The translations under genes and the position numbers were made by a program. Positions 1 to 15,541 of a stretch of DNA of 25,304 nucleotides are shown here, piece after piece (positions within the stretch are counted from its first letter, which is position 1; each line of letters opens with the position of its first letter). The notes beneath the pieces are model-generated. The model worked only from the letters and a program-made list of their open reading frames with translations, was not told where the DNA came from and made no database searches. Source of the DNA: a virus; IMG/VR virus record IMGVR_UViG_3300029319_000461, positions 1 through 25,304 of that record; one strand, 5' to 3'.

Positions 1-2432
1 GCTGGGTCTCCAGAAGCGTTCCCTATGGGAAAGAAGATTTCACCGAAAGAGTACTGCCTGGGATGGCTGGAGGAATCTACATTACCAAACATCAGATCTT
101 TAAACGATATGGAATCGGGGGGAACATCATAAGGAAAATTAGTTAACCCGCCACCTATATCAACCACTGTAGCGAGCAGATCGTTAAGATCTACAAGACC
201 GCTCGTAGTAGATCCTGCGCTGATTCCAGGTCCACTTGCAATCATGGGCACCAACATGGCGCGATCATATAAAGAGCCTTTGAATGTATTAGCTGAATCG
301 TTTTCTCCACCTCTTCGCACGGCAGACGGGGTTAAGGAAGAGCAATATGCACCTAAGTTGAGCATTTTGTCGTAAGTGGATCCAAAACCTCCAGACCCAG
401 CATAAGATCCGCCAATACTTTCCTCGGCACCCAATCCTAGCGAGGAACACCATGTGGCTCTTCGTGCCAAGTCAGTGCTTAAGCTACCGTTGTCTGAGGT
501 GAAAATAAATATAGTATTGTCTTTTCTAGATTGATCTAAGTTATCAATAAACCCGCTAAGTGCTTTATCAAAAGTCTCTAACATTGCATTAGTGGCTACC
601 CAGTTAGAAGAAACGCTGTTGCCTGCGTTCATCCCAGCAGACAAATCGCTATACCTATTATTGTTATTGTAATAGCTGTTGTACACATCCGATGAGGGTG
701 GATAGGTATAAGGCGTGTGTGGCGTATTTGGGGTAATGTACATAAAGAAGGGCTCTTGGGCAGTATTGAAATACGCACTGGCCTGAGAGAAGATGTAGTT
801 TGTTGTGAAAGAGCTTGGGTCCCCTTGTTCGTAAGGGGTAGTCCCATTAACCTGTTTATATGTTCTATACCCCGTATCGGAGACTGTTGTTTCTACGCCA
901 TTAGTGTTAACAGTATAGTTCACATATCCCATCTGCTTCCCATCAGTCGAGTTAGGTGCAGCCCCGTTAAAGTGAGGCCACTCTGATGGATTCTCCCAAG
1001 CTCCGCTATTATAATTTAATCCAGGGACAGGAGCAGTGTTTAGGTTTGAGAATGTAGCCGTATAATGATCCCATTTTCCTTTTAAAGCAATATGCTCCCA
1101 ACCACTACCATATTTATTATCGCCCCCTACACCATCCCCCTGCTCACAATAAACCTTCTGCTCGCTCCAAGCGGCTAAGTGCCACTTACCAAATAAAGAG
1201 GAGTTGTAATTCATAGACCTTAAATAATCTGCAATTAAAGGCTGATTGACAATATTATTTAGTGCTCCGTTATCATCTCTTACAGCGTTAGCTAGGCTTT
1301 GTTGAGTTCCGTCCTGCTGAATAAAACCATACCCGTCATTGAGACCTTTCATGCCGCCGCGCCCTCTTTTAAGCCAGTTGGTATCGCCTACAATACCATA
1401 ACCACCACCCCAAAAGCCGATAGGCTCCCCTGGAGCTAGGTTTTTCTTATTTCCTGCTGTAGAACGATAGTCGCCTACTCCAAAATTGTACTTTCCAGTG
1501 AGTATAGTAGCACGGGTTGGACTACAGGCTGGTTGCGATCTACTATTGAAAAAGGTCATGCCTCCTGCTGCCAACGCACTTAACATGGGTGTGTGTGGAT
1601 AAATACCACTCCCATTTGTTGTATCCTCTAACTGGCTAAAAGGCGTTGCATTGGCGTGATTACCGTTCTCTCCTAAAGAATAAGCGTTGATCGCATCATA
1701 CATCCCAAGCTGATCCACTCCAACATCATCAATCATGATGAACACTACGTTATTCGATGGCGGGGGGAGAGGATCTTCAGAAACAGGGCTATCTACAAAC
1801 TTAATCTGCCAATCAATTACCAAAGAGAAGTCGCTAGTTTTTCTAACGCCCTCTCCCTCTGCGCCATCGAGGTTTTTATATGCAATCAAGACAGATTGAT
1901 TATCTTTTAGTCTTTTAGCGCCGTAGTTTTCTGCTGCTGAGTTTCTAGTAAAAAGGCCAAACTCAGTGATATCTGCACCGAGATTGTTACCCATGTTCTC
2001 GGTTAGAGTTAGCCTATAATTAACAACACCATCAATAATTTGAGTGCTTTTTGAATCAGGAAGAAATGCAAACACGGAATCACTAAACCCTTCTGCATAA
2101 GCAGGGCTCATATTAGTGGCGTGATAAGAAATCAACTTATGAGTGTCAACCTTAATCTCTGCGTCTTTTCCGTATGATTTTTGAGATGCTAAAGGACTAT
2201 CAAGCGTGCTAATGTACTTTGCAATACTGGCTGGCAGATCCTGAGGATTGTGCTTTCCTAAGCCGACCTGGAAATAACCCGCTATCCTATCAGATATTCC
2301 TCGGTCCCCGCTATCAGTTAAAAGGTCTGCCAAGGTCACTCCTAGACCGTCTGTAAGGATGTTGTCATCTTTGCAGACAAGTTCCTCTCTTCCGTCTCTA
2401 AAAACCTTCGTTACTTTTACAGATCCTTTCAT
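1..2432 (-). CDS. Tail-attached type I (formylglycine) sulfatase, 3' end outside window
   Basis: I translated this frame by hand from the ATG at 2432 to the left edge: 810 codons, no stop. Residues 1-211 resemble the attachment module of the upstream fibre protein (M-x-G-x-V start, G-L-F-T near 155-160, ending S-L-V-I-D-W-Q-I-K-F). A proline-rich linker (about 212-223) leads to an alkaline-phosphatase-fold sulfatase. Seen residues match the arylsulfatase active site: D235-D236 (V-F-I-M-I-D-D), C303-S-P-T-R307 followed by A-T-I-L-T-G-K, K416 and H418 in G-K-W-H-L, H572 in T-P-H-T-P, D647-N648 in F-T-S-D-N-G, and K718 in F-K-G-S-L-Y. In this family the cysteine is oxidised to formylglycine, which attacks sulfate esters. 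There is no signal peptide, as expected for a virion protein assembled in the cytoplasm. The start overlaps the fibre stop (ATGA) behind a GGAGG. Sulfatase assignment is very secure; tail attachment is inferred from context and the N-terminus. Substrate is unknown. The C-terminal subdomain lies outside the window. Confidence 0.93.
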   Translation of the reverse strand, partial: MKGSVKVTKVFRDGREELVCKDDNILTDGLGVTLADLLTDSGDRGISDRIAGYFQVGLGKHNPQDLPASIAKYISTLDSPLASQKSYGKDAEIKVDTHKLISYHATNMSPAYAEGFSDSVFAFLPDSKSTQIIDGVVNYRLTLTENMGNNLGADITEFGLFTRNSAAENYGAKRLKDNQSVLIAYKNLDGAEGEGVRKTSDFSLVIDWQIKFVDSPVSEDPLPPPSNNVVFIMIDDVGVDQLGMYDAINAYSLGENGNHANATPFSQLEDTTNGSGIYPHTPMLSALAAGGMTFFNSRSQPACSPTRATILTGKYNFGVGDYRSTAGNKKNLAPGEPIGFWGGGYGIVGDTNWLKRGRGGMKGLNDGYGFIQQDGTQQSLANAVRDDNGALNNIVNQPLIADYLRSMNYNSSLFGKWHLAAWSEQKVYCEQGDGVGGDNKYGSGWEHIALKGKWDHYTATFSNLNTAPVPGLNYNSGAWENPSEWPHFNGAAPNSTDGKQMGYVNYTVNTNGVETTVSDTGYRTYKQVNGTTPYEQGDPSSFTTNYIFSQASAYFNTAQEPFFMYITPNTPHTPYTYPPSSDVYNSYYNNNNRYSDLSAGMNAGNSVSSNWVATNAMLETFDKALSGFIDNLDQSRKDNTIFIFTSDNGSLSTDLARRATWCSSLGLGAEESIGGSYAGSGGFGSTYDKMLNLGAYCSSLTPSAVRRGGENDSANTFKGSLYDRAMLVPMIASGPGISAGSTTSGLVDLNDLLATVVDIGGGLTNFPYDVPPDSISFKDLMFGNVDSSSHPRQYSFGEIFFPIGNASGDP

Positions 2433-4234
2433 ATAAAATTAAGCCTCCACACAAGAGTTAAATCAGAATATTTTATGCATCCTGCATTACTGCCATCATC
2501 TTTTACAGCAGCCAAGTTTTTCGTTAAACTCTTCTCTGCGAATAGTTTATATACTAATTTATTATAGCCTGTGTTGAAATTTAGAGGGAAGGATGGAACT
2601 AGCTTAGGATTTCCATGCTCATCTGTGTCCGATAAAGTTTTCTCTAAATCAATTGTCCACAGGCCACATTTGAATATTCCTCCGTACAGGTTAGCCAAAC
2701 CTAAATCTGCGGAAGCAATAGTGGTTATACACGATACCTCTCCAGTAGAGGAGAAATTAACATCAGCAGAAACGATCAAGCCTGATGCTGGATTTGTAAT
2801 ATCATGAGGCCACGCTTGGGCTGTTTTTGTGGCTGATGGGAAATAGGATCGAATGTAACCATTCTGGTCCATGGATCTTACAGACGAGGAGTTAAAATAG
2901 TTTCTATCCGTAGTATCAGGATATACCGCGCTGGCTAATATATTTGATAAGTTATCTTCCATATAGGAAATATCAGATAATATCGCAAAAGGTGTTCCGC
3001 TAGTATGGGGGTAGCAACCTAGGAAGGTATCTCCAGGAACTCCCCCCTCGTCAAACCCAGGGGTCGCAGTAGTTACAGATTGGTATCTTGTAGCGCCGTA
3101 GCTCTCTTCTAACTGAGGACCCCAAATATATAACTGAGCGCCTGTCGTAGGTTTAAACCCTGGCTCCTTAAATGTAATTCTAGTTTGAACCTCATCTCCA
3201 TTATCGGTGAAGTTGCCATCGCTGTCCGTTCCTCGGTGTGCCACCTCTAACCTATACCACCCTGAAGAAGTTGTTGCGTCACCAACAGGAGTAACTTTAG
3301 CTGTCGTTCCCGCTAAAGCAGAAACTACGGGAGGCATATAAGAAGAGACTGACTCATCATAAGTAACGAACTGCGCGGTGTATCCTTTACGACTGGGCGT
3401 ATTGTCTCTAATATTAAGTGTAATTGATGAAGTGGCATTAGTATCAGGAAGTTTTATGTATACACTATAAGTATGATCAGTGTTATGGTGGAAACAGGTT
3501 TTAAGTAAACTTATATCTTGTTCCAATCTACCTGTTGTATTGTGTGTAGAACTTAGTAGAAGAGCGGACGAACTATACTCAGGCCCTGAGTGTGTTGCGG
3601 ATAAAGAAGAGGAGCCTAAATTTGCCACCGTCCAGTAAGCTCCCGCGCTATCAGCAGTAGGATCTTCGCTGTATGAGATAAGGTTAGGGTTTGTGTTCGA
3701 TTGAATTCTGTTTAAGTTGTGACCATAAGAGTGTGCTCGGCCCTGCATCACATTTGAACCCATGTAATGATATTGACCTGAAACAATATCAATAGCAGTC
3801 CTAGTATCAGGTTCTAGTTGAGTATCATTTGGGTTAGGCCACATTCCAGGATCTCGCTTAGGATCATAAGAGCAGGCAGTGTAAGAAATGTTTTCATTAA
3901 CCAAGGAGACAGCACGGGGAATATTAGAGGCATCCTTAACAGCATTTACATATGTGTAGTATTCCCTACCTGATCTGATGTAAGAAGAAACATCCTGTGG
4001 ATAGAAGTGTGCATTGCTTCTGTACGCATCCGAAGACTTACCTAAAGATAATGCTTGAATAGTAAAGTTAGAACTATCTGTAATGCCTACAGCGCCAGAT
4101 ACAATCCCCGAAGGCGTTGTAAGTAAAGTGCATAGGTTCTCAGCGGCTCCATTAACAATAAGATTAGACTCTGAGGACACTAACTTTTGGTTAGGCGTGT
4201 TAAAGTCTGCGTAAATTTCTACTGTTCCAATCAT
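2429..4234 (-). CDS. Tail fibre/adhesin with jelly-roll carbohydrate-binding-like insert
   Basis: A 601-residue protein probably exposed on the virion and used for host or glycan binding. Residues 1-80 and about 460-601 resemble, in order, the first ~211 residues of the sulfatase downstream: an M-x-G-x-V start, K-L-V then N-L-I-V-N-G and L-L-T, an L-G-K motif, and an end in L-T-L-V-W-R-L-N-F. Between these halves, residues 180-390 carry the pattern of a jelly-roll module common in phage tail proteins: N-L-I-S-Y-S-E-D near the start, Y-S-V-Y-I-K, G-W-Y-R-L-E-V, and a closing Q-L-Y-I-W-G-P-Q-L-E-E. No catalytic motif was seen. The start abuts the stop of the 2187-residue gene (TAAATG) and its TGA overlaps the sulfatase ATG. 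The fibre role is inferred from position and modules; the receptor is unknown. Confidence 0.75.
   Translation of the reverse strand: MIGTVEIYADFNTPNQKLVSSESNLIVNGAAENLCTLLTTPSGIVSGAVGITDSSNFTIQALSLGKSSDAYRSNAHFYPQDVSSYIRSGREYYTYVNAVKDASNIPRAVSLVNENISYTACSYDPKRDPGMWPNPNDTQLEPDTRTAIDIVSGQYHYMGSNVMQGRAHSYGHNLNRIQSNTNPNLISYSEDPTADSAGAYWTVANLGSSSLSATHSGPEYSSSALLLSSTHNTTGRLEQDISLLKTCFHHNTDHTYSVYIKLPDTNATSSITLNIRDNTPSRKGYTAQFVTYDESVSSYMPPVVSALAGTTAKVTPVGDATTSSGWYRLEVAHRGTDSDGNFTDNGDEVQTRITFKEPGFKPTTGAQLYIWGPQLEESYGATRYQSVTTATPGFDEGGVPGDTFLGCYPHTSGTPFAILSDISYMEDNLSNILASAVYPDTTDRNYFNSSSVRSMDQNGYIRSYFPSATKTAQAWPHDITNPASGLIVSADVNFSSTGEVSCITTIASADLGLANLYGGIFKCGLWTIDLEKTLSDTDEHGNPKLVPSFPLNFNTGYNKLVYKLFAEKSLTKNLAAVKDDGSNAGCIKYSDLTLVWRLNFI
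2444..2448 (-). promoter_or_regulatory. Strong ribosome binding site of the sulfatase gene
   Basis: GGAGG on the minus strand lies 11 bases before the ATG at 2432, inside the last codons of the fibre gene. It is one of the clearest Shine-Dalgarno sequences in the operon and supports this start over later ones. Confidence 0.65.
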
Positions 4235-7200
4235 TTAATTTGTTACATCTACATTTGTATAATTTTCAAAGGTTCCGTCTTTGGTCCCTATTGTTTCATT
4301 ATCAGGGTTATCTCTATATGAAAGTCTACTGCCACCACTTAAATCATGTATGCCTGATGAGTCTGCTGCAACTCTAGTATTAAATCCTCCACGATTAATT
4401 CTAAGTCTGTTGCTCGTTGTTTTACCTAACCTATTAAAGTATCTAAAGAGCACTAATAAATCTTCTGGATTAATTGGTATCTGACCCTTTACGTCCCTGC
4501 CTATGTTTGTGCCTTCTGTGCCGCCAGAAACAGATAAGACTCTTTTATCCTCGGCTTCATCAGCAAAATTTGCCTCTCGTAAGAGCTTTCGAGAGATTGA
4601 ATATTCTATAGGTCCATCATACTTCAATCCACTATTATCGTATAATTCAACTGATTTATAGACTTTGGACAAGAAGTTTGTGTTTGCTGGAACCTCTTCG
4701 ACCAATGTTAGTTTATCTAGAGAGGACGCGGACTTACTGTAAAGACTTAGCTCTCCTTTGTCATCCTGTATAATCTCAGTAGGAGCAAGAACTATCTCCT
4801 CATCAATCTCTGACGAAACAGTTTCTACATTGGACTCGTATAAAACAACATTGTCGATCTTTCCTGGGTATTGGTGGAAAGGATTGCCTGGTAAATTTGG
4901 GCCTAAGGACTCCTCTCCTTTAAACGATTGCTTTCCTACCTTTGTTAATGTTCCTGTGCTTCTCCTGAACTGCCCGATCTCTCCAGTACTAACACCTTGT
5001 GGGTATAAGGCATAACCCCAGGTCATTAATTTACAAGGAACATAAGACCATGTATCTGTTCCAGACTCTAAGTTAGGATCGTTACTTCCAGGAACCGCGC
5101 CCATAGCCTCAATTGGATCATCAGGGAGTAAGTTATCAAACCTGTCGTTATACGCTTGGACGGTGCATCTTAATCCTAGATTTTGCTTTCCTGAAATATC
5201 CTCTTCAAAGGCATCATAAGGAAGTGAAACTCGAACCCTATACCAATCTACCGTAATTGAAGGATCGTCAGCTTTCGGCACTGTATAGGCAGTGATAAAC
5301 GCGCCTTGGTTGCCTGTAAGACCCGCAGCGGTTCCACCACGCTCTTTTTTCTGTCCAACACTTCCCGTGCCATCAAATTCAGGCAGCTTGACACGAATTC
5401 TTGAGTAGCTAGTTTTACTTCCTATGGGGGCTAAAGTTACAATAGCAGAAGTTGCGTAACGATCTTTAATGAATGAATCACTACTAGAATTACCTCTAAC
5501 AAACACGGTAAACGAATATGTTTTTCCATGCACTAATTTATCTCGCTCGACATCTCTATACACCGACATTGGAGGAAACGTGATTCCATGCCCCTCGTCT
5601 TCAAGATTAGAAATAATTGATTCGCCAGCAATCGTCTCATAGACATCAAATCTTTCTGGAGTAGGGTTGTCGCTTTGATTAGAAGGTTGAATGGGCGTCT
5701 TCATTAGCTGGTCAATGGCTAAAGCTGATGGAACATAACCTAAAGGATCTAAGATTGTTGGAAGAAGAGGATCAGCCCCTGGAGTATAACTCCAGTTAGT
5801 AGAATCCTCTAGCTGAGACAGTTGTACATCTAGTGGAGCACTTTCATCGAAGTTTGGGGTAACTCGTCTAGATGTAAAGTCCAACATGATTGGGCTTCCG
5901 ACTGATGTTTTAACGCCATAAGGGTTATCGAAGAAAGTATCGGTGCCAGGAACAATGTCGTACATATCTTGATAATCAAATTGATCATCAATTCTTCTAA
6001 AGCCTAGAGGGTTAGTCTCGCCATTATTGACATCCACGGGTCCGTGTCCTGCGCGATCCTCACTATCCATAAACTGCTCATTACTGGCGTGGCCTGGTCT
6101 AGCCAGTCCTAATAGTGGGCGACCTATGTAATTATTTTGACCACTCTCTCTTTGTTTTTGGGGCCAGAAGTATAAGTCTACGCCCTGCCCTAATGAGTAG
6201 TTTGGATTAGCTACATCACCTGTAATACGACGGAAGCCTGAGTTAATATATGGAGACCACTCATTAAAAGACAAGAACCCTTTTCTAGCTTGCCAATAGT
6301 CTCTAAGTCTTCTAGTCCTCCTTAATGTTGCATTTAAATCAGATCCTCTGTCTTTCAAGCTAAAATCAAAACCTAACGCATTGGCAGTCCAAGTGTTATT
6401 GCAGATTCCAGTAAAGGGCACCTTTCCCCATGGCGTTTTTAGGTTGGCTAACAAGGACGAATCTGTAAGCAACCCAGGCTCGTCTGGGTAAGTAGCGTGT
6501 AAGAACTGTGCTATTGCCGCGCCTGGATACCAGTGTACAGCACCAGGTGGTATATAATCTTTTAGGTATCTGTCAATGTTTGGTGCCCCAACAACAGACC
6601 ATAACTCTGAATTGAAGCGACATGGGTGTTGTGGGGAGTAGGGCGTCCCCTCTCCTTGCATTGTGCGGAAAAGATCTTTTGTTTCATAAGTGACCGTGAC
6701 CGTAGGGGCATTTATATCACTAAACAAAGCAGTGAAGGCAACATCATCTAATTTTGTTCGACTAGGCAGGAGGAGATCGTAGCCTCTGCTTGGCGTAGGA
6801 GTTTTTTGGTCAGTTATATCAGGAATGGTAGCCGAATAAGGTATCTGTGCAGCCTCATTTAGGGTCTTATCAACTACGTTTATTTTATCAAAGATTACAA
6901 ACTCTTTTTGAGGATTGTTTTTAGGGACCTGGAAGACTTCAATTATGTAATTTTGAGACTTTGTTCTGTCAGATATATCTGCTCTGTGGAGTTGTACACT
7001 TCGTCCATTGTATACATCTGAATTATCTGCATCATAATAAACTCCATACGAGAACGGAATGTCTGTCAATTGGTTCTTAGTATGGAAAGATAACTTTGCT
7101 GTTGTAATATTATCTTTTTTAATATACTTTAGAACACTGTAATTATTTAAAGTTGTGTCACAGTTAGTATCTTGGAAAACAGTTTCAGCCTCTTGATCCG

Positions 7201-10200
7201 AGAAGAAGTGCGTGTGCTTGGACAATACATTGGAGATACCATTCCTAGAGTCTGCCAGAGAGGAAACATCTACCATCTCCCATTTTTGTTGAGGGGACCA
7301 TACGAATACTACAGGTCTCCCATCAACTGTTTGCTCTGTCTTAGTTCTTAGTATTACACCAATTTCTCCACCACCTACAACAGCAGTATCAAGCTTGCCT
7401 GAAGTGAAGTCTACAGATAACTCAAAGTCATGCTCTGGAATCAATATGTTGTTTTCTTCAGGGCTTACCCCACTTAAATCAAACTTAATTCTTGGGAGAC
7501 CGACCCCAGAGGTTTGAACATATATACAACGGTTGTTTATTAGATAATTGTCGTACTGCGGATCTGTTGTTTCCTGTAGAGCATCTAAATCATAAATGAT
7601 GAATCTATTGTTAGAACTCATGTCTGGGTGAGCCGAAGTGTCAATTAACGAGACACCACTTAGGATATTGTCCGCCGTAAATTCAGGGGCTCCGTAGAAG
7701 GGAGTGGAAGATAGCGTCACTGCTGAGACTCCAGGGAAAGAGGTTCCTGAAGCATTTAGGTTTATAATATATGGGCTACTAAGTTTAGTGGTAACCAACC
7801 CAGCTAGTGAAGGCTCATCTGTTACTGAAGATCCATCTAGTTCAAAGTTAGCATTGAAGTACAGTGGGCCGTAGGTGTGCGATAAGATGTTCGCACCCCC
7901 TCTATCCAGAGTAAGTAGTAGTGACTGAGGGAGGGAGCTTCCGTCTATAGAGGTTTGGAAATATTTGTTATATGTATTGTATATCTCCTGAACTCCTTTG
8001 GAGTCCCCTCTAGATAAAACCCGCTTGTCTAATACAGGCGAAGTAAACTTATCGTATCCTACATCCTCTATACGGTTTGCGTAAGATGTGCGAATGTTGT
8101 ACCATGGAGCAGAGGCAGAAAGTAATTCATAATTAAGATCTACGATATCCTGTGCGATGGCAGATTTCTTCATCTCTTCGAACTTAAAGAATGTGTATAC
8201 CTCCTCTGCCAAAATATCTCGCCTGACAAATTGGTCACATGAGGAGAACTGTAGTGTGCCGTAGTCTCTGGTTAGGAAGGCGTTACTCACATTCAGCCCA
8301 AAATAAGATCTAGTGGATGCCGAACCAGCGCAATCCTTGGCGTAAACTCCAGAGAGGTTTTCAAAACTTCCATCAGCGAAACTCAATGAGGAGGGAATAA
8401 TCCCTAATGGCATTGCATTTATGTGGGCACTAGTATTGTTGTAGAAAGACGGCATGGAATAACCGCCCCGATTGTACCAACCCTTCTCATTTAAAGTATT
8501 GTAAAAGTTTCTTCTTCTTATCGATCTTCTTGGTATGCCACTCGTGGCTGGAACAACGTCATCCGTATTGACCACGGAGTCCGCTATGTTATTAGAAAAT
8601 CTAGCTTGTTCTCGACTAAAAACTGGGATATTATTATGGGCAACCTGGCTCCTGGAATCGTCAAAGGAAGCATACTTCTGTCTTCCTAAAGCAAAGCCAG
8701 TGCCTCTAACGTATGCTCCGCAAACCTCATAGTTTGATAAAGCGCCAGATCCGTCTGGAACATCATGAAGCCTGAATCTAACAGAAGGGCAGATGAAGTC
8801 GAGACCACTAGTGAATTCCTGTTGACCTAAAACGAGCCGTGTTCTTGGGACTGCCTTAGCGGGGGAAAACTCATCAACAATGGATAATGTTTCCAAGATC
8901 TCATCTTTTGTGTACAGAGCAGATGAGTCTTGGAATAGAATGCTAGAGAAATCACCCGCACAAACAGTGAAATCAAATGTTGAAGACTTACCGCTCCATA
9001 GAGTTAGATCATCATAATCTTTAATGTCCTTTTGTTCTAATATATCATCGTAGTTTGGGGGAAACTGAAGAGATGATGTTAAGAATAAATACCCATTACC
9101 TAAGTATAAATCAGTTTCTGAGTTTGAGGAAACAGTATATGAATATGTAAAATCATAAAAGGAGTCTCTAAGAGCAGCAGGCACACAGTAACGCTCTAAC
9201 TCGTTTCTATAAAAGTTAAGAAGCTCCTTTGTTACCATGCAGTTTCTATAAAACTTCTCCTCATCCCAAGGAGGTATAGGCATCTCCGCATTTCTGTAAT
9301 TAAATACAAAGTTAGGATCTCGAAGGATCGCCACCTTGCGGGAATCTTGTGTCTGAAAGGTGCCTGTATAATAATTATCTTCTACCTTAACAATAGGGCC
9401 AAGCCAGCCTGTCCCATCCTCTAGAACATTTACACGGAAAGGTTGGTTTCTTATGAAGAACAAGTGAGGGAATCTCTCAACAGCACGCATCATGATGCTA
9501 TCCACAGCCGCTCGAATGTTCTGATCTTTATTTGTTGGACTATAGGACTCAGGAACAGCGCCATACTCTAAGGCAGTGTTTATATCAAATGTGTTTAAAT
9601 CAAAGAGAGTTCCTGTTTCAGTTATTAAGAGATAATACAGAAGTCTAGGTATATAAGACTCGTACATTTCTGTGACCGTATTGCTCACATCAATAGGGTT
9701 CTGAACAATCACAGAATTCATTGCGTCTATAAGACCCTGTTTCGTGCCTTTCTTTTTATACAAATCAGTTGCATTCGCTATCTGATTTCTCCACGAAGTC
9801 TCATTATTACCGTATAACTTCCACCCTAATAAACTAGCAAGATAAGGTAAATATTCGGCAGGGCAGTCCTGAATAGAATTAAGCGTGGTAATGTTTTCTA
9901 CTTCGTTATCAATATCCCGTAAAGAATATGAGAAAGCTCTCAAGAATTTATTAAATGGACCCGCTTCCTCTGTCGTGGCTAGGACTGTCGAAGCAGAACC
10001 GAGGAAAGATTCTAATGCATTTACTACTGTCTTGTCTTCTCTATCAATATGAAGTGGGGAGTAAATAACATCAACTAATGTTTGTAGCTTTTCTAGGTTT
10101 TGATTGCCACTCGTATATGTTCCCGCTCCCGACAAGAACGCAGAAGGCAACATTCTGGACTCAATTGAACTGAAGTTGGAATAGTTATCCCACAAGTATT

Positions 10201-10798
10201 TTTGATAGTCCTTGATTCCATCATTAATTAAATATGAACGACCATTGTAAAACTTATCCGTGATCGAACTAGCCACTATCGTTGAGGGGTCCGTCACTGG
10301 GCCTGCTGTATTTAAGAAATAAAGCCAGCTTAGTTCTGAAATTAAAAACTCGTGTGTCGCTGAAGCCGTACTACCAAAAACACTTGACGTATCTGTGTGC
10401 AAACTCTCTGAGTTCAAAGTTATTTTAGGCAGCAATGTTCCGCTAAGAAAATCGTGGAACTCAGCAGAGGTTGAATAATCTTGGTATTTGTAGCCGAGAG
10501 GCCGCAGAACCTTTTTCTCAAACCTGTTTGGGGTGATATTTGTTAGCTTGTTTTGCTTAACGAAGTACTGCCCAAAGCCCGTCGCTGTGTTTATTGCACT
10601 AAAATTAGGCCTCGTGGACAAGGCACTGATATCCAGAGTGTTCGCAATATTAGCTATTGAAAACAAATGGCTATTGATTACTCGGTCTGTTAATTTTACT
10701 TGATAACCACTAACTGCAACATCATCCTCGATGTACAGATCTGGCGTAATGATTTTTACCGCATCAACAAAATTAATTTTTGAGTACTTTCGTGCCAT
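4235..10798 (-). CDS. Giant baseplate/tail protein, gpI (T4 gp7)-like region plus lectin-like modules
   Basis: A 2187-residue protein, the largest gene here. Around residues 260-360 it carries the pattern of phage tail protein I (P2 gpI; a similar region occurs in T4 gp7-type wedge proteins): L-P-Y-L-A-S-L-L-G-W followed by W-R-N-Q-I and then K-K-K-G-T-K-Q-G-L-I. Its place directly after gp6 fits a wedge component that links baseplate to fibres. Residues ~1730-1930 look like a jelly-roll module (Y-S-F-T-V-F-V-R, later D-W-Y-R-V-R-V). Another beta-rich patch follows near 1975 (I-D-N-V-V-L-Y). The central ~1300 residues are beta-rich, with no family I recognise. The ATG overlaps the gp6 stop (TAATG) and there is no clear Shine-Dalgarno, so translation is probably coupled. 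It may combine the roles of T4 gp7 and neighbouring wedge or fibre-connector proteins; that is inference. Confidence 0.72.
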   Translation of the reverse strand: MARKYSKINFVDAVKIITPDLYIEDDVAVSGYQVKLTDRVINSHLFSIANIANTLDISALSTRPNFSAINTATGFGQYFVKQNKLTNITPNRFEKKVLRPLGYKYQDYSTSAEFHDFLSGTLLPKITLNSESLHTDTSSVFGSTASATHEFLISELSWLYFLNTAGPVTDPSTIVASSITDKFYNGRSYLINDGIKDYQKYLWDNYSNFSSIESRMLPSAFLSGAGTYTSGNQNLEKLQTLVDVIYSPLHIDREDKTVVNALESFLGSASTVLATTEEAGPFNKFLRAFSYSLRDIDNEVENITTLNSIQDCPAEYLPYLASLLGWKLYGNNETSWRNQIANATDLYKKKGTKQGLIDAMNSVIVQNPIDVSNTVTEMYESYIPRLLYYLLITETGTLFDLNTFDINTALEYGAVPESYSPTNKDQNIRAAVDSIMMRAVERFPHLFFIRNQPFRVNVLEDGTGWLGPIVKVEDNYYTGTFQTQDSRKVAILRDPNFVFNYRNAEMPIPPWDEEKFYRNCMVTKELLNFYRNELERYCVPAALRDSFYDFTYSYTVSSNSETDLYLGNGYLFLTSSLQFPPNYDDILEQKDIKDYDDLTLWSGKSSTFDFTVCAGDFSSILFQDSSALYTKDEILETLSIVDEFSPAKAVPRTRLVLGQQEFTSGLDFICPSVRFRLHDVPDGSGALSNYEVCGAYVRGTGFALGRQKYASFDDSRSQVAHNNIPVFSREQARFSNNIADSVVNTDDVVPATSGIPRRSIRRRNFYNTLNEKGWYNRGGYSMPSFYNNTSAHINAMPLGIIPSSLSFADGSFENLSGVYAKDCAGSASTRSYFGLNVSNAFLTRDYGTLQFSSCDQFVRRDILAEEVYTFFKFEEMKKSAIAQDIVDLNYELLSASAPWYNIRTSYANRIEDVGYDKFTSPVLDKRVLSRGDSKGVQEIYNTYNKYFQTSIDGSSLPQSLLLTLDRGGANILSHTYGPLYFNANFELDGSSVTDEPSLAGLVTTKLSSPYIINLNASGTSFPGVSAVTLSSTPFYGAPEFTADNILSGVSLIDTSAHPDMSSNNRFIIYDLDALQETTDPQYDNYLINNRCIYVQTSGVGLPRIKFDLSGVSPEENNILIPEHDFELSVDFTSGKLDTAVVGGGEIGVILRTKTEQTVDGRPVVFVWSPQQKWEMVDVSSLADSRNGISNVLSKHTHFFSDQEAETVFQDTNCDTTLNNYSVLKYIKKDNITTAKLSFHTKNQLTDIPFSYGVYYDADNSDVYNGRSVQLHRADISDRTKSQNYIIEVFQVPKNNPQKEFVIFDKINVVDKTLNEAAQIPYSATIPDITDQKTPTPSRGYDLLLPSRTKLDDVAFTALFSDINAPTVTVTYETKDLFRTMQGEGTPYSPQHPCRFNSELWSVVGAPNIDRYLKDYIPPGAVHWYPGAAIAQFLHATYPDEPGLLTDSSLLANLKTPWGKVPFTGICNNTWTANALGFDFSLKDRGSDLNATLRRTRRLRDYWQARKGFLSFNEWSPYINSGFRRITGDVANPNYSLGQGVDLYFWPQKQRESGQNNYIGRPLLGLARPGHASNEQFMDSEDRAGHGPVDVNNGETNPLGFRRIDDQFDYQDMYDIVPGTDTFFDNPYGVKTSVGSPIMLDFTSRRVTPNFDESAPLDVQLSQLEDSTNWSYTPGADPLLPTILDPLGYVPSALAIDQLMKTPIQPSNQSDNPTPERFDVYETIAGESIISNLEDEGHGITFPPMSVYRDVERDKLVHGKTYSFTVFVRGNSSSDSFIKDRYATSAIVTLAPIGSKTSYSRIRVKLPEFDGTGSVGQKKERGGTAAGLTGNQGAFITAYTVPKADDPSITVDWYRVRVSLPYDAFEEDISGKQNLGLRCTVQAYNDRFDNLLPDDPIEAMGAVPGSNDPNLESGTDTWSYVPCKLMTWGYALYPQGVSTGEIGQFRRSTGTLTKVGKQSFKGEESLGPNLPGNPFHQYPGKIDNVVLYESNVETVSSEIDEEIVLAPTEIIQDDKGELSLYSKSASSLDKLTLVEEVPANTNFLSKVYKSVELYDNSGLKYDGPIEYSISRKLLREANFADEAEDKRVLSVSGGTEGTNIGRDVKGQIPINPEDLLVLFRYFNRLGKTTSNRLRINRGGFNTRVAADSSGIHDLSGGSRLSYRDNPDNETIGTKDGTFENYTNVDVTN

Positions 10799-12405
10799 TA
10801 TACATATGCTACATTAATTGTTACATTATTGAGTTGGATCACTTCATTGAAGCTGGCCTCAATATTTTTATCAATATTATCTACTGTAGAGTATCGAACC
10901 TCATTTAAATCAAAAAGCTCTCTGTTCAATTCTTGTGGTATGAAAACATCTCCAAACCCAAACTTATCATAGGTGAAAAAGTTTGTTACGACATTTGCGG
11001 CTTTTTGTTTTATAGTATCTTCGCTGTCCTCTAAAGAACTATCAACATATAGAGTAATAATAAGATCTAAAGTTCTAATTAGACCGTCAACAATTACTAC
11101 TTCATCTGTTAACATTTTCTGCTCTTGCATGGCTGCTAGTAGATTTGTTTTATAATCTACAGTAGCTTTCTGTAACTGGTTTGTAGTCGCCTTTTGCAAG
11201 ACAAATACGTCAATTATGTTAGCAGAAGAATATGCTTTTCTTGTAGAGGCAGTTCCAATAGCTGTTCCCCCTGTTGGGCTCAAATACCTAGACACAAAGG
11301 ATTTGTAATCATTTAATGTTACAAGCCTGTTTTGCTGCTTGAATACTAAAGGTCCATTTACTTTAGCGTTCTCCACAGTTTCAGCGTCGATGCCCCCTGT
11401 AATTACGCTCGTGTTCGTGAGAGTTCCTGTTCCCACATTCGTGCTAATTGGAGCGTTTACAGTGGCTCCTAAAAGGTTGCCTCGCGTACCTCCTCCGATC
11501 CGATACATGACACGATAGGAGGAAGAGTTGGGTGGGGTGGCTCCGACTGTCCCATCACCAAACCTGACAGTTGCGTTAAACTCGTCATCATACAACACCT
11601 CAAAAACTCGGTCAGTGGGACCTGAGGCACTGAAAATATTATCCTTTTGCACATATACTCCAGATGCGGCATCCTCAGCAGTTACGAACACCTGCACACT
11701 GTTTTCAATAACAGGTCCCTGATTTAAGGCGATGGTTTTGAATACTTCTGTGCTATCAAAAGTGCCTGTCTCTTCAACCAAAGACCCCTCAAGTAGAGCT
11801 AAATTAGTCCAAACAGTATTAGCTTCGTCAACAGAATCACTTAATCCTAGAGTAATCTGGTTAGTGTTAGAAGCCAAGTTGGCAATCTTCCCAGACTGAA
11901 CTGGGTATAACGTATATGTTACCTGACCTCCATCTTGTGGTGAAGTAAGTGTTACAACTCTATCGGCAGCGTCTATAACAACGCTCTCTCCTGCTGCTGA
12001 GTCTAAAGTTAACTGAGCGTTACCACCTGCCGAAGTGGGGCCTTTCATGCGAATGCCGATTAGTTCTAGTAACTTGCGAACATTTCTTCTGTTCCTAGCA
12101 GTTGGTAAGAAGTTTTCGTTTGCCAATGCGTCCGCTTTGAACGATAGCACTGCACCCATGTATGACACTAGTTCGGTAAACATGACGGCAAAATCTGATT
12201 CGGTAAAATTTTGATAATCCTCAGGGTATACCGCTTCCATATAGTTGAGCAGGTTTTCTCTCAAAGTTCCAAAATCAGTTCCTGCATAGTTAATGAGATC
12301 TTTTTTGTTATTGTAGTCTGCCCCTTGAGATATTAACTTCTGGAAATCGGATTCTGCTGTTGTGAATGGGATGTCGTTAGGTATTTGATAATTTCTAGTG
12401 CTCAT
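10798..12405 (-). CDS. gp6: Baseplate wedge protein, gp6 / baseplate J family
   Basis: A 535-residue protein of the baseplate J/T4 gp6 family, which forms the ring linking the wedges around the hub in contractile tails. Residues 60-120 have the gp6-like opening (Y-P-E-D-Y-Q-N-F, F-T-E-L-V-S-Y-M, L-L-E-L-I-G-I). Near residue 277 comes the typical baseplate J signature V-R-F-G-D-G, then Y-R-I-G-G-G-T-R-G-N. The C-terminal third (N-D-Y-K-S-F onward, ending in a V-T-I-N-V strand) matches the usual family layout. Length fits phage gp6-like proteins. The start overlaps the gp25 stop (ATGA) and the stop overlaps the next start (TAATG). The gp25-gp6-gpI order is the classical baseplate cassette. Confidence 0.92.
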   Translation of the reverse strand: MSTRNYQIPNDIPFTTAESDFQKLISQGADYNNKKDLINYAGTDFGTLRENLLNYMEAVYPEDYQNFTESDFAVMFTELVSYMGAVLSFKADALANENFLPTARNRRNVRKLLELIGIRMKGPTSAGGNAQLTLDSAAGESVVIDAADRVVTLTSPQDGGQVTYTLYPVQSGKIANLASNTNQITLGLSDSVDEANTVWTNLALLEGSLVEETGTFDSTEVFKTIALNQGPVIENSVQVFVTAEDAASGVYVQKDNIFSASGPTDRVFEVLYDDEFNATVRFGDGTVGATPPNSSSYRVMYRIGGGTRGNLLGATVNAPISTNVGTGTLTNTSVITGGIDAETVENAKVNGPLVFKQQNRLVTLNDYKSFVSRYLSPTGGTAIGTASTRKAYSSANIIDVFVLQKATTNQLQKATVDYKTNLLAAMQEQKMLTDEVVIVDGLIRTLDLIITLYVDSSLEDSEDTIKQKAANVVTNFFTYDKFGFGDVFIPQELNRELFDLNEVRYSTVDNIDKNIEASFNEVIQLNNVTINVAYV

Positions 12406-12869
12406 AGTGATATAGTTAAATCCGTTTGTTGATTAGTGGTTGAGGAGGTCACAAGTAATTTTATCTTGATTCCAGGCACTCCGAATCCTTGTACCTTTTC
12501 TCCTTCTAGAATCTGAAGATTTAAAATCCTAGCTTCGGGAACATATGAAGCAAGGCCGAAAACAACCTCTTTCTTGATTGCTAATCTTAAGTCTTCAGTT
12601 ATGGGCTCAAAAAGAAATCTCTTTAAAGACAGTCCAAAGTTAGGTAACATAACTCGCTCTCCGCGCTCGGTGCGGATGAACTGCCTCAATTGGCTTTTTA
12701 AAAGCTCTAAACCTTTTGTTTTAACGAAAATTCCTTTGCTGGTGTTCGTTTCATCGAATAAAGGATACTTTACACCAAAAATATCATCCGCCTCGGTAGC
12801 GTTTAATACCTCATCTTTTGCCACATTTAAGGGTGTGACGCCAAAAACTGTAGTGCTCGTTGTTGTCAT
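12402..12869 (-). CDS. gp25: Baseplate wedge protein gp25-like
   Basis: A 155-residue member of the gp25/GpW/IraD family, the wedge protein that nucleates the sheath on the baseplate. The core at residues ~50-145 shows the diagnostic run: I-R-T-E-R-G-E-R-V, then L-P-N-F-G-L-S-L, then F-L-F-E-P-I, then a helix and the strand A-R-I-L-N-L-Q-I. The N-terminal ~45 residues (threonine-rich, then F-G-V-T-P-L-N-V) form the usual short arm. Both ends overlap the neighbouring genes as ATGA, which ties its translation to theirs. Although T4 gp25 was once called a lysozyme, no catalytic site is claimed here. Very secure. Confidence 0.93.
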   Translation of the reverse strand: MTTTSTTVFGVTPLNVAKDEVLNATEADDIFGVKYPLFDETNTSKGIFVKTKGLELLKSQLRQFIRTERGERVMLPNFGLSLKRFLFEPITEDLRLAIKKEVVFGLASYVPEARILNLQILEGEKVQGFGVPGIKIKLLVTSSTTNQQTDLTISL

Positions 12870-15541
12870 GTTTGAATGTTCTTAAATAAGCCTTTTTGTG
12901 CGTTGTAGTTCTTAACGACCTCACTACTAGTTAGGGGTTTAGAGTAAAACTTTAAACTTCCGACAAAGCCGTTTAGGCCGCTTGTAAGTCCGTGCCTCAG
13001 CCCCATAAAGCCCCCATCAAGAGTAGTACTATTTATTGGATGGCCTTCAGTCCAACCACCCCCAACAATCCACGGAGTAAAGTAAGTGTCATTCAGAGGG
13101 CCGTTATTAAATATCTCTACATTATCATTCTGGACAACTGTTTCAGAAGAGTAGTAGAAGCTACTATTTTGTTGATCTTCTGGTCGAATAAACGTAGGGA
13201 TGCTTGGTGACTTGCCACTATCTCCTCCAAAAACTTGGGTCATCGCTGAGGTTGCCATCAAATTACCGTCAAGGTAAATCGAGCAATTATCACCAGAAAC
13301 ATCAAAGGATATGTGTAAGTGGACAAAGCCTGCTGAAACATCTGACATTTTACTGCCACCCACCGTGTAGTCATCCTTAACAATCATCTTGTTGTAATTG
13401 ATGGAAGTGCTGTTTGCACAATCGCTGTTAGGCTTGAACTCTACAGAGCTTCCATCAAAAGCCATCGTGGGTGCGATAAAGAAGCAACTTGATGCTACTG
13501 TAGAGGAGGCAGCAACACCGACATTTTTGCCTGGATCAGTGTTCGGTCCTGGAATGACAAAATCATCTCTATAAATTACGGGGTCTCTTGTAAACCCTAT
13601 CAACAAGCCCTTAGTAGTATTGCTTCCACCTGCATTGCTTAGCGAGCTTACATCTGGAACAGGAGCAGTACCTCCTAAGTTTTCATTGCCTAGTAATACT
13701 TTATAGTAATTGTAGTCTCCCCATGCTCCAGCAGTGTTAGGTCTAAAAGCATTTCCTGCATCCTTTTCTCTACTGGTTTGATCTGTTCCGTAATTAGGTA
13801 TATGTAACCAGCACTCCAAGCTACACCCTCTACTGCTATACAGCAAGTTCTGAAACTCATCAATAGGGGGCAACCTTAAGTAGTTACCTGTGTTTGTTAG
13901 TTTTTTAGTTCCAGCATTAAACTTTGAAACACCAGTGAATTTAGGAATCGCAAGTCCAGAGGCGAACACCCCTGCTGTGGTTTTTCCAATTGTCTGTGCG
14001 TTTCCATAAGTATCTACAGTGGCGCAATTAAGTGTATCATACACGTTGCTGCCTACGCTCTGCACAGAAGGCTTTAGGAAATTGTATATAGCAAAAAGGC
14101 TATCAGCCTCAATCTGATCCGTCAATGATATAGCGGGAGCGGTGGTAGATGAGACAGAAGGACTAAAGACAATCGACCCTTGACCAACAGGAGGGACAAC
14201 TAAAGGAGAAATTACCACCTCAGAAGTACTTCCATAGTTAGTAACAAATACAGGTTCAATAGGAAGTACAACATCCTCCACATCACCAGCCTCAAAAGTT
14301 AGGGCTTCTTGTTTCTCTAATGCAACAGATAAATTTATAGAACTTAAGAATGAGAAGTTGTTTACGGGTATCTCCCCTGGAAGGAAGACCTCATCTGAAC
14401 CAAACAAGTCAGCAGACTTTACAGCCACTTCAATCTGCTTTTTTCTTTTGTCTATCTGTCTATTGAAGGAGTCAGCAACAGAGTAAAGATTTTGTCTATA
14501 GTTGACAACCAAGGCTGAATCTTCTACATACCCACCGTTCTTCAACTCGGTTATCTCAGATGTGATATCCTCAACCCTCTTTGCTTTTTGTCCCTCTAGC
14601 ACATTAAGAAAGTGATCAGCATCGTAATACTCAGTTAAAGTTTTTGAATCATCTATATTATTGGGATCAAAAATAGTATCCACATATTGATTTAATTGAT
14701 CTACGGAGACAATGGTTCCCTTTCCTCCTAAGCTAGGAGCGTGATCCATGGTCCACTTCTCGCTATCAACAACAAAACCTACATCCGATGCAGAGGGTAT
14801 GGATTTACCGTTGTACATCCGATCCTGTGAATCGTAATATAGGCCATCTTCAGATAGAATAAATACGCCTTGACGAGAAACAGGAGGTCCATAAACTAAA
14901 CGGAAGATTGGTAAATCATCCTCCGCTTCTGCTGGCTGCTGTTCTCTCTCAAGTAAAACCGTTCCAATGTTTTGAAGTAATTCGTTGCACTTGTCTGCAA
15001 ACTCAGTAGCCTGATTTACTCTAGCTTTAGCTAAACCTAATGCGGCTGCGCGAGCATTTTCTGTGTATTGATCAGAGCTACCCCCACCCAATCCTCCTGT
15101 TCCAGTTATGGGCGCAGGACCTGTGCTGTTTAACCAATTTTCGACCTCAGAAATGCAATTAGAAATCTCATTATAAACATCAATCCCCTGGTTAACAAAG
15201 CTCTCAATCTCAGACAGGTATCCTGTAACTTGAGCCACTTTGTCTAGGAATCCTAGATCTAATCCAAACTTACTAGCTTCAGAGAAGAGCGTAAATTTTC
15301 CTGTCCCAGCATCATATGATAAAAGCCCCATGTCAGAGAACAGATTGTTAACAACACCAGAGATAGCTGCTCTAGCGGAGGCTTTACCTTGCTCTGCCAT
15401 CTCAGCCATTTGCGTAAGAACCCCAGTGTCAATCAAGCTCAACGCTTCTACACCAAAGTTTAACATGCAAGTCGGGATACCGAAAGCGGTGTTTAAACTT
15501 GCTACAGGATTGGTTAGATATTGTGGGTTAAATATTGCCAT
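12866..15541 (-). CDS. Large structural protein with C-terminal LamG/concanavalin-like domain
   Basis: An 891-residue protein encoded between the central spike and gp25. Residues 1-130 are mostly helical (F-G-V-E-A-L-S-L-I, then alanine-rich stretches). A charged, probably coiled-coil part lies near 300-385 (E-I-T-E-L-K-N and R-Q-I-D-K-R-K-K). From ~570 to 885 the sequence has a LamG-like layout: G-C-S-L-E-C-W-L-H, then H-L-H-I-S-F-D-V, then S-I-Y-L-D-G-N-L-M-A, and at the end F-V-G-S-L-K-F-Y followed by L-T-S-S-E-V-V-K-N-Y-N. This is the usual order of a concanavalin-type jelly roll (width strand, ligand strand, final F-x-G-x-x strand and helix). Such domains often bind glycans. The N-terminal part probably docks to the baseplate; that is inferred from position. 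The start follows the gp5 stop by 5 bases, with AGGGG about 10 bases upstream. Confidence 0.72.
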   Translation of the reverse strand: MAIFNPQYLTNPVASLNTAFGIPTCMLNFGVEALSLIDTGVLTQMAEMAEQGKASARAAISGVVNNLFSDMGLLSYDAGTGKFTLFSEASKFGLDLGFLDKVAQVTGYLSEIESFVNQGIDVYNEISNCISEVENWLNSTGPAPITGTGGLGGGSSDQYTENARAAALGLAKARVNQATEFADKCNELLQNIGTVLLEREQQPAEAEDDLPIFRLVYGPPVSRQGVFILSEDGLYYDSQDRMYNGKSIPSASDVGFVVDSEKWTMDHAPSLGGKGTIVSVDQLNQYVDTIFDPNNIDDSKTLTEYYDADHFLNVLEGQKAKRVEDITSEITELKNGGYVEDSALVVNYRQNLYSVADSFNRQIDKRKKQIEVAVKSADLFGSDEVFLPGEIPVNNFSFLSSINLSVALEKQEALTFEAGDVEDVVLPIEPVFVTNYGSTSEVVISPLVVPPVGQGSIVFSPSVSSTTAPAISLTDQIEADSLFAIYNFLKPSVQSVGSNVYDTLNCATVDTYGNAQTIGKTTAGVFASGLAIPKFTGVSKFNAGTKKLTNTGNYLRLPPIDEFQNLLYSSRGCSLECWLHIPNYGTDQTSREKDAGNAFRPNTAGAWGDYNYYKVLLGNENLGGTAPVPDVSSLSNAGGSNTTKGLLIGFTRDPVIYRDDFVIPGPNTDPGKNVGVAASSTVASSCFFIAPTMAFDGSSVEFKPNSDCANSTSINYNKMIVKDDYTVGGSKMSDVSAGFVHLHISFDVSGDNCSIYLDGNLMATSAMTQVFGGDSGKSPSIPTFIRPEDQQNSSFYYSSETVVQNDNVEIFNNGPLNDTYFTPWIVGGGWTEGHPINSTTLDGGFMGLRHGLTSGLNGFVGSLKFYSKPLTSSEVVKNYNAQKGLFKNIQT

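Follow-up and report, generated by a model that had tools for sequence, protein, structure and literature searches.

Deacetylases and esterases are known among the tailspikes of phages and, to our knowledge, the known virion enzymes for surface glycans comprise depolymerases, lyases, deacetylases and esterases. The locus analyzed here resembles the tail-borne deacetylases and esterases in coding for a tail-carried enzyme that would take a substituent off a surface glycan, and it differs from them in its sulfatase chemistry, its implied formylglycine maturation and its predicted sulfatase fold, no beta-helix body having been recognized. Works cited in PMC3322345 concern deacetylases of the baseplate of Salmonella phage c341 and of Vi phage III, and genes for the formylglycine-generating enzyme (FGE) have been reported in Pseudoalteromonas phages (PMC10232697). 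Those Pseudoalteromonas phages and the present one both touch sulfatases; there it is the activating enzyme that is encoded, whereas here it is the sulfatase itself, and the FGE family PF03781 was absent from the ten partial relatives searched. With the type I (S1) sulfatases, such as the carrageenan enzymes of S1_16/S1_19 (9fo1, 6prm) and the Bacteroides mucin enzyme 7oqd, the protein has in common the profile, the CxPxR signature, the ten catalytic residues and the predicted fold, but it departs from them by its tail module, an extra C-terminal part and a low identity in fold matches, and in two relatives (L004 and L007) by a large insertion within the domain.

The window, that is, the whole stretch of DNA analyzed, comprises the 25,304 bases of IMGVR_UViG_3300029319_000461, and the sulfatase ORF lies on its minus strand (3..2432, ATG start), where an N-terminal tail module (N-module, aa 1-214) is joined to a formylglycine-type (S1) sulfatase domain. 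The features of the gene, with the catalytic positions taken from alignment columns and the signature also from direct reading of the sequence, are as follows.

3..2432, minus strand: tail protein with S1-type sulfatase domain, 810 aa, 3' end lost at the contig end
1791..2432, minus strand: N-terminal tail module, aa 1-214, homologous to a stand-alone downstream gene of relatives
3..1757, minus strand: sulfatase (PF00884) domain, aa 226 to the contig end
1725..1730, minus strand: metal-binding D235-D236
1512..1526, minus strand: C303-S-P-T-R307, the CxPxR formylglycine signature, from which the catalytic residue would arise
1179..1187, minus strand: K416-W-H418, GKWHL motif
717..719, minus strand: H572
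489..494, minus strand: metal-binding D647-N648, SDNG motif
279..281, minus strand: K718

A sequence-only reading of this DNA had described, with no strand given, an unbroken sulfatase frame with a complete active site. The frame is real and the ten residues (D235, D236, C303, R307, K416, H418, H572, D647, N648 and K718) all stand where that reading placed them, but the contig ends before the protein is complete, the frame being still open at its first bases. As complete copies of the fusion in relatives measure 1,046-1,389 aa, the window protein is short of about 245 C-terminal residues. A complete copy consists of an N-module of ~214 residues, which would serve attachment to the tail or baseplate, a central sulfatase and a C-terminal part of ~245 residues.

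Viral databases had been pointed to as the place to look for other proteins joining a tail N-terminus to PF00884, and scans of viral contigs returned the same N-module-sulfatase fusion on 11 further contigs from ten datasets (L003, L004, L005, L006, L007, L009, L010, L012, L013, L014 and L162). Since L013 and L014 differ at one of 1,046 residues, these amount to ten distinct copies of the fusion. The copies are 44-63% identical to the window, the most divergent being L162 (35% identity to L006), and that of L005 ends before the catalytic cysteine. The fact that the sulfatase ORF reaches the contig end had left room for a chimeric assembly of phage with bacterial sequence; this was rejected because the junction recurs, in diverged form, on the eleven further contigs, no close bacterial sulfatase was found among the matches listed from a genome scan, and we give the chimera next to no chance.

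In a Pfam profile search the window ORF was matched by PF00884 in two stretches (E=1.2e-31; 110.6 bits, the cut-off being 25), and in sequence comparison the domain was matched by solved sulfatases, the nearest of which, an S1_16 enzyme (9fo1), lies too far off for assignment to a SulfAtlas subfamily, while the Pseudomonas arylsulfatase 1hdh was matched both by profile and by fold. The C303-S-P-T-R307 signature runs on into the usual ATILTG stretch. None of the ten catalytic residues differs between the window and the ten relatives long enough to show them, ten of ten being kept even in L162; the formylglycine cysteine is present in every phage copy reaching that position, and the residues that bind metal and sulfate (D, D, R, K, H, H, D, N, K) are all present and do not vary among the phage copies. 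As the same ten columns are conserved in 66-68 of the 68 bacterial sulfatases of a 93-row alignment, this agreement is not due to chance. Over the sulfatase domain, the pair L012/L009 had a dN/dS of 0.20 and the pair L010/L003 one of 0.10, with saturation in the window/L006 pair; the domain is under purifying selection, with dN/dS of 0.1-0.2.

Glycans are commonly bound by phage tail proteins, and the sulfatase fold might accordingly have been kept as a sulfated-glycan-binding (receptor-binding) domain in which catalysis is incidental or absent. That divergent copies keep all ten catalytic residues unchanged, the formylglycine cysteine and CxPxR among them, counts against such a role, since binding alone would have no need of them, and we hold it to be quite unlikely. 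Phosphonate monoester hydrolases have formylglycine and much of the sulfatase active site in common with sulfatases, and 4upk matches the protein weakly, which would suit an enzyme of this superfamily that hydrolyses phosphodiesters or phosphonates rather than sulfate esters; the sequence and fold matches are overwhelmingly to sulfatases, which makes a hydrolase of that kind highly improbable.

In a tree of 77 sulfatases, nine T4-like sequences formed one group (SH-aLRT 100) that joined two viral sulfatases, L017 and L019 (support 98), apart from the bacterial sample, which consisted of matches listed from one pattern-based genome scan. Those listed matches are low-identity segments, mostly from Verrucomicrobiota, Planctomycetota and Bacteroidota, and a near cellular homologue of the fusion sulfatase was not found among them. 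Two copies (L004:9424-13593 and L007:10001-14068) carry an insertion of ~270-300 aa that follows the GKWHL motif within the sulfatase domain; that of L004 found no match in a PDB search, and the insertion is possibly a substrate-recognition domain.

For the complete relative L006, an AlphaFold model built from a 93-sequence alignment reached a pTM of 0.71, and the ten-residue blocks holding the catalytic residues had a mean pLDDT of 79-96, except for the K720 block at 56. Structure prediction followed by a fold search had been proposed as a check on the sulfatase assignment, and the L006 model retrieved sulfatases: all 50 PDB matches listed belong to this class (best E=1e-16), at a moderate TM-score (0.47-0.61 by target length) and about 12-19% identity. 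An alkaline-phosphatase-type sulfatase fold is predicted for the domain from this model of the relative; the window protein itself, modelled with only ten alignment rows, gave a pLDDT of 33. No protein with a right-handed parallel beta-helix body was present among the PDB matches listed for L006. In the predicted viral structures of BFVD, the sulfatase part finds its matches in giant viruses, and a number of small tailed-phage proteins align across about 215 columns, which is the size of the N-module.

Carrageenan, mucin or glycosaminoglycans are the substrates of many of the solved sulfatases that come nearest in sequence and fold. It can be argued from this that a virion-borne sulfatase would act on sulfated glycans around the host, such as algal polysaccharide, gel particles or mucus, and help the particle to travel through the habitat of the host or to remain there. 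However, the identity of the fold matches is too low for substrate prediction, and modification of the host's own surface would be the most direct gain for a phage; we consider a target in the surroundings unlikely, if deserving of some weight.

Upstream of the fusion gene, the window holds the following genes of the baseplate operon.

2429..4234, minus strand: 601-aa tail-operon protein, its end overlapping the sulfatase ATG by 4 bases
4235..10798, minus strand: 2187-aa baseplate/tail protein with a Tail_P2_I match (PF09684, E=3.2e-7)
10798..12405, minus strand: gp6-like baseplate wedge protein, the anchor for finding sister phages
12402..12869, minus strand: gp25-like baseplate wedge protein, by profile match

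An 891-aa protein at 12866-15541 has a weak lectin-like match (PF13385, E=0.0016) that falls below the cut-off. The fusion gene belongs to this baseplate/tail operon in an arrangement conserved across relatives, the order gp25, gp6, ~2200-aa gene, ~600-aa gene, N-module-sulfatase gene and ~192-aa N-module gene being found in every relative with the flanks present. The sulfatase gene had been taken as the last of the operon; it is not, since the relatives carry more tail genes after it on the same strand, namely the ~192-aa gene, one of ~1,160 aa and further ones. A 75-kb relative (G008) encodes homologues of the gp18 sheath, gp23 capsid, gp21 protease and gp20 portal proteins, a T4-type terminase and UvsW, and this gene set together with the gp6 and gp25 of the window identifies the window phage as a T4-superfamily myovirus. 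The best annotated-phage match of the window gp6 and the G008 gp23 is the 595-kb uncultured phage LR756511, a divergent T4-type myophage, with which both homologues are in common at 25% and 34% identity, respectively. No tRNA genes were found on the window or on the seven relatives scanned.

The N-module is homologous to the stand-alone gene directly downstream in relatives (hhalign E=4e-26), and over its first ~41 residues it is similar to the beginning of the upstream 601-aa protein (E=3.7e-4). It has no Pfam match and no PDB relative, so its proposed attachment role is drawn from gene order and paralogy. Among sister phages reached through gp6 (45-51% identical), four loci carry an N-module of 225-237 aa in the same position without a sulfatase. 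These observations bear on whether the sulfatase could be a non-structural auxiliary enzyme for the infected cell, for which a parallel exists in a 32-kb viral contig where a 570-aa sulfatase (L017:9929-11641) has helicase and primase genes on either side and looks like a non-structural auxiliary gene. In the present family every relative with flanks has the enzyme within the baseplate operon, as a fusion with a tail module, and the N-module occurs without the sulfatase in sister phages; such a role is very unlikely, and as a stand-alone auxiliary gene it was rejected for the fusion family because the enzyme is joined to the tail module.

On the strength of the fusion, the active site and the tail locus, we consider it probable that the particle would carry an active sulfatase and desulfate a glycan of the host surface during adsorption. 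The sequence-only proposal of a tail protein plus sulfatase is reinforced by the same fusion on eleven further contigs, the conserved baseplate neighbourhood, the adjoining paralogous N-module gene, the sister phages with the N-module alone, the intact active site, the purifying selection and the predicted sulfatase fold. The infected cell would produce the fusion protein with no signal for secretion, none having been seen by eye; as its N-terminus is a tail module, the simplest way outside would be on the particle. The CSPTR signature implies that C303 would be converted to formylglycine by a host enzyme (FGE or anSME) and, PF03781 being missing from the ten partial relatives, the putative maturation is left to the host or to unsequenced phage genes. 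The N-module would then dock the protein onto the new tail, and the particle would hydrolyse sulfate esters of the sulfated surface polysaccharide of the next host; we infer that the sulfate is stripped from a host capsule or exopolysaccharide. Desulfation may expose a receptor or let the particle through the coat, in the manner of the tail-borne deacetylases and esterases of other phages. If this holds, desulfation would join the list of virion glycan activities, some bacteria may be supposed to bear sulfated coats to which phages have adapted, and phage infectivity would be tied to a post-translational modification of the host, formylglycine, which would make host FGE a candidate host factor and a route of resistance.

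A virion-borne glycan-modifying enzyme is as such of a known kind, and the sulfatase class is unreported for it in the open-access literature and databases searched. The sequence-only reading knew of no well-characterised tail-borne sulfatase, which agrees with the open-access PMC literature, INPHARED and BFVD: that literature yielded mentions of sulfatases in other contexts and no account of one on a phage tail, and INPHARED contained no homologue of the fusion. The hits of two bacterial sulfatase queries against INPHARED were for the most part faecal 'Bacteriophage sp.' contigs without annotation and records resembling bacterial chromosome. They also included a stand-alone sulfatase ORF in the unverified and unannotated records of two Campylobacter phages, A11a (497 aa; L155:6004-7497, MG065691.1) and A18a (MG065686.1). 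A 62-kb viral contig has a gene for a lambda gpJ-like central tail fibre and, three genes further on, one for a 590-aa sulfatase without a tail module (L019:9935-11707), possibly a second tail-associated sulfatase.

The slot upstream of the stand-alone N-module gene was surveyed at 80 loci anchored on that gene. It holds the N-module with a sulfatase at 9 loci, with another payload at 8 and alone at 22, and has no N-module gene at the remaining 41; the slot is a payload site with swappable contents. For the wider proposition, that a payload slot of T4-superfamily baseplates presents unrelated domains exchanged on the N-module and that one lineage bears there an active, host-FGE-dependent sulfatase, a new virion catalytic class directed at sulfated bacterial surface glycans, we see the chances as evenly balanced. 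The slot offers a concrete locus in which further enzyme classes may be sought.

Three loci (L164:5095-7959, L165:5095-7959 and L166:5050-7950) hold there an N-module with a ~740-aa payload, in which a serine-hydrolase-like GxSxG stretch (RIYLWGFSNGG) is seen and Pfam gave only a weak match (PF00326, E=0.047); PF00884 has no match on the L164 and L165 contigs, 130 kb. Four others (L168:5374-7962, L169:5374-7962, L170:5390-7954 and L171:119-2695) hold an N-module with a ~640-aa payload without a Pfam match, whose stretches such as GDAVNGVHY are reminiscent of Calx-beta repeats. A PDB search of two non-sulfatase payloads, that of L168 among them, found nothing. In Campylobacter phage CP8, a cultivated and divergent T4-type myophage the genome of which was inspected outside 50-75 kb, a 186-aa protein (AGS81307) two genes after gp6 weakly resembles the N-module (hmmsearch E=9e-4 in a three-protein file; hhalign E=1.3e-4, probability 54) but carries no payload; from the shared length of 186 aa it presumably corresponds to the BFVD fold match S5VU23. 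At one further locus (L172:6477-8261) the N-module is split by an insertion of ~390 aa, the module being formed by residues 1-108 and 496-592.
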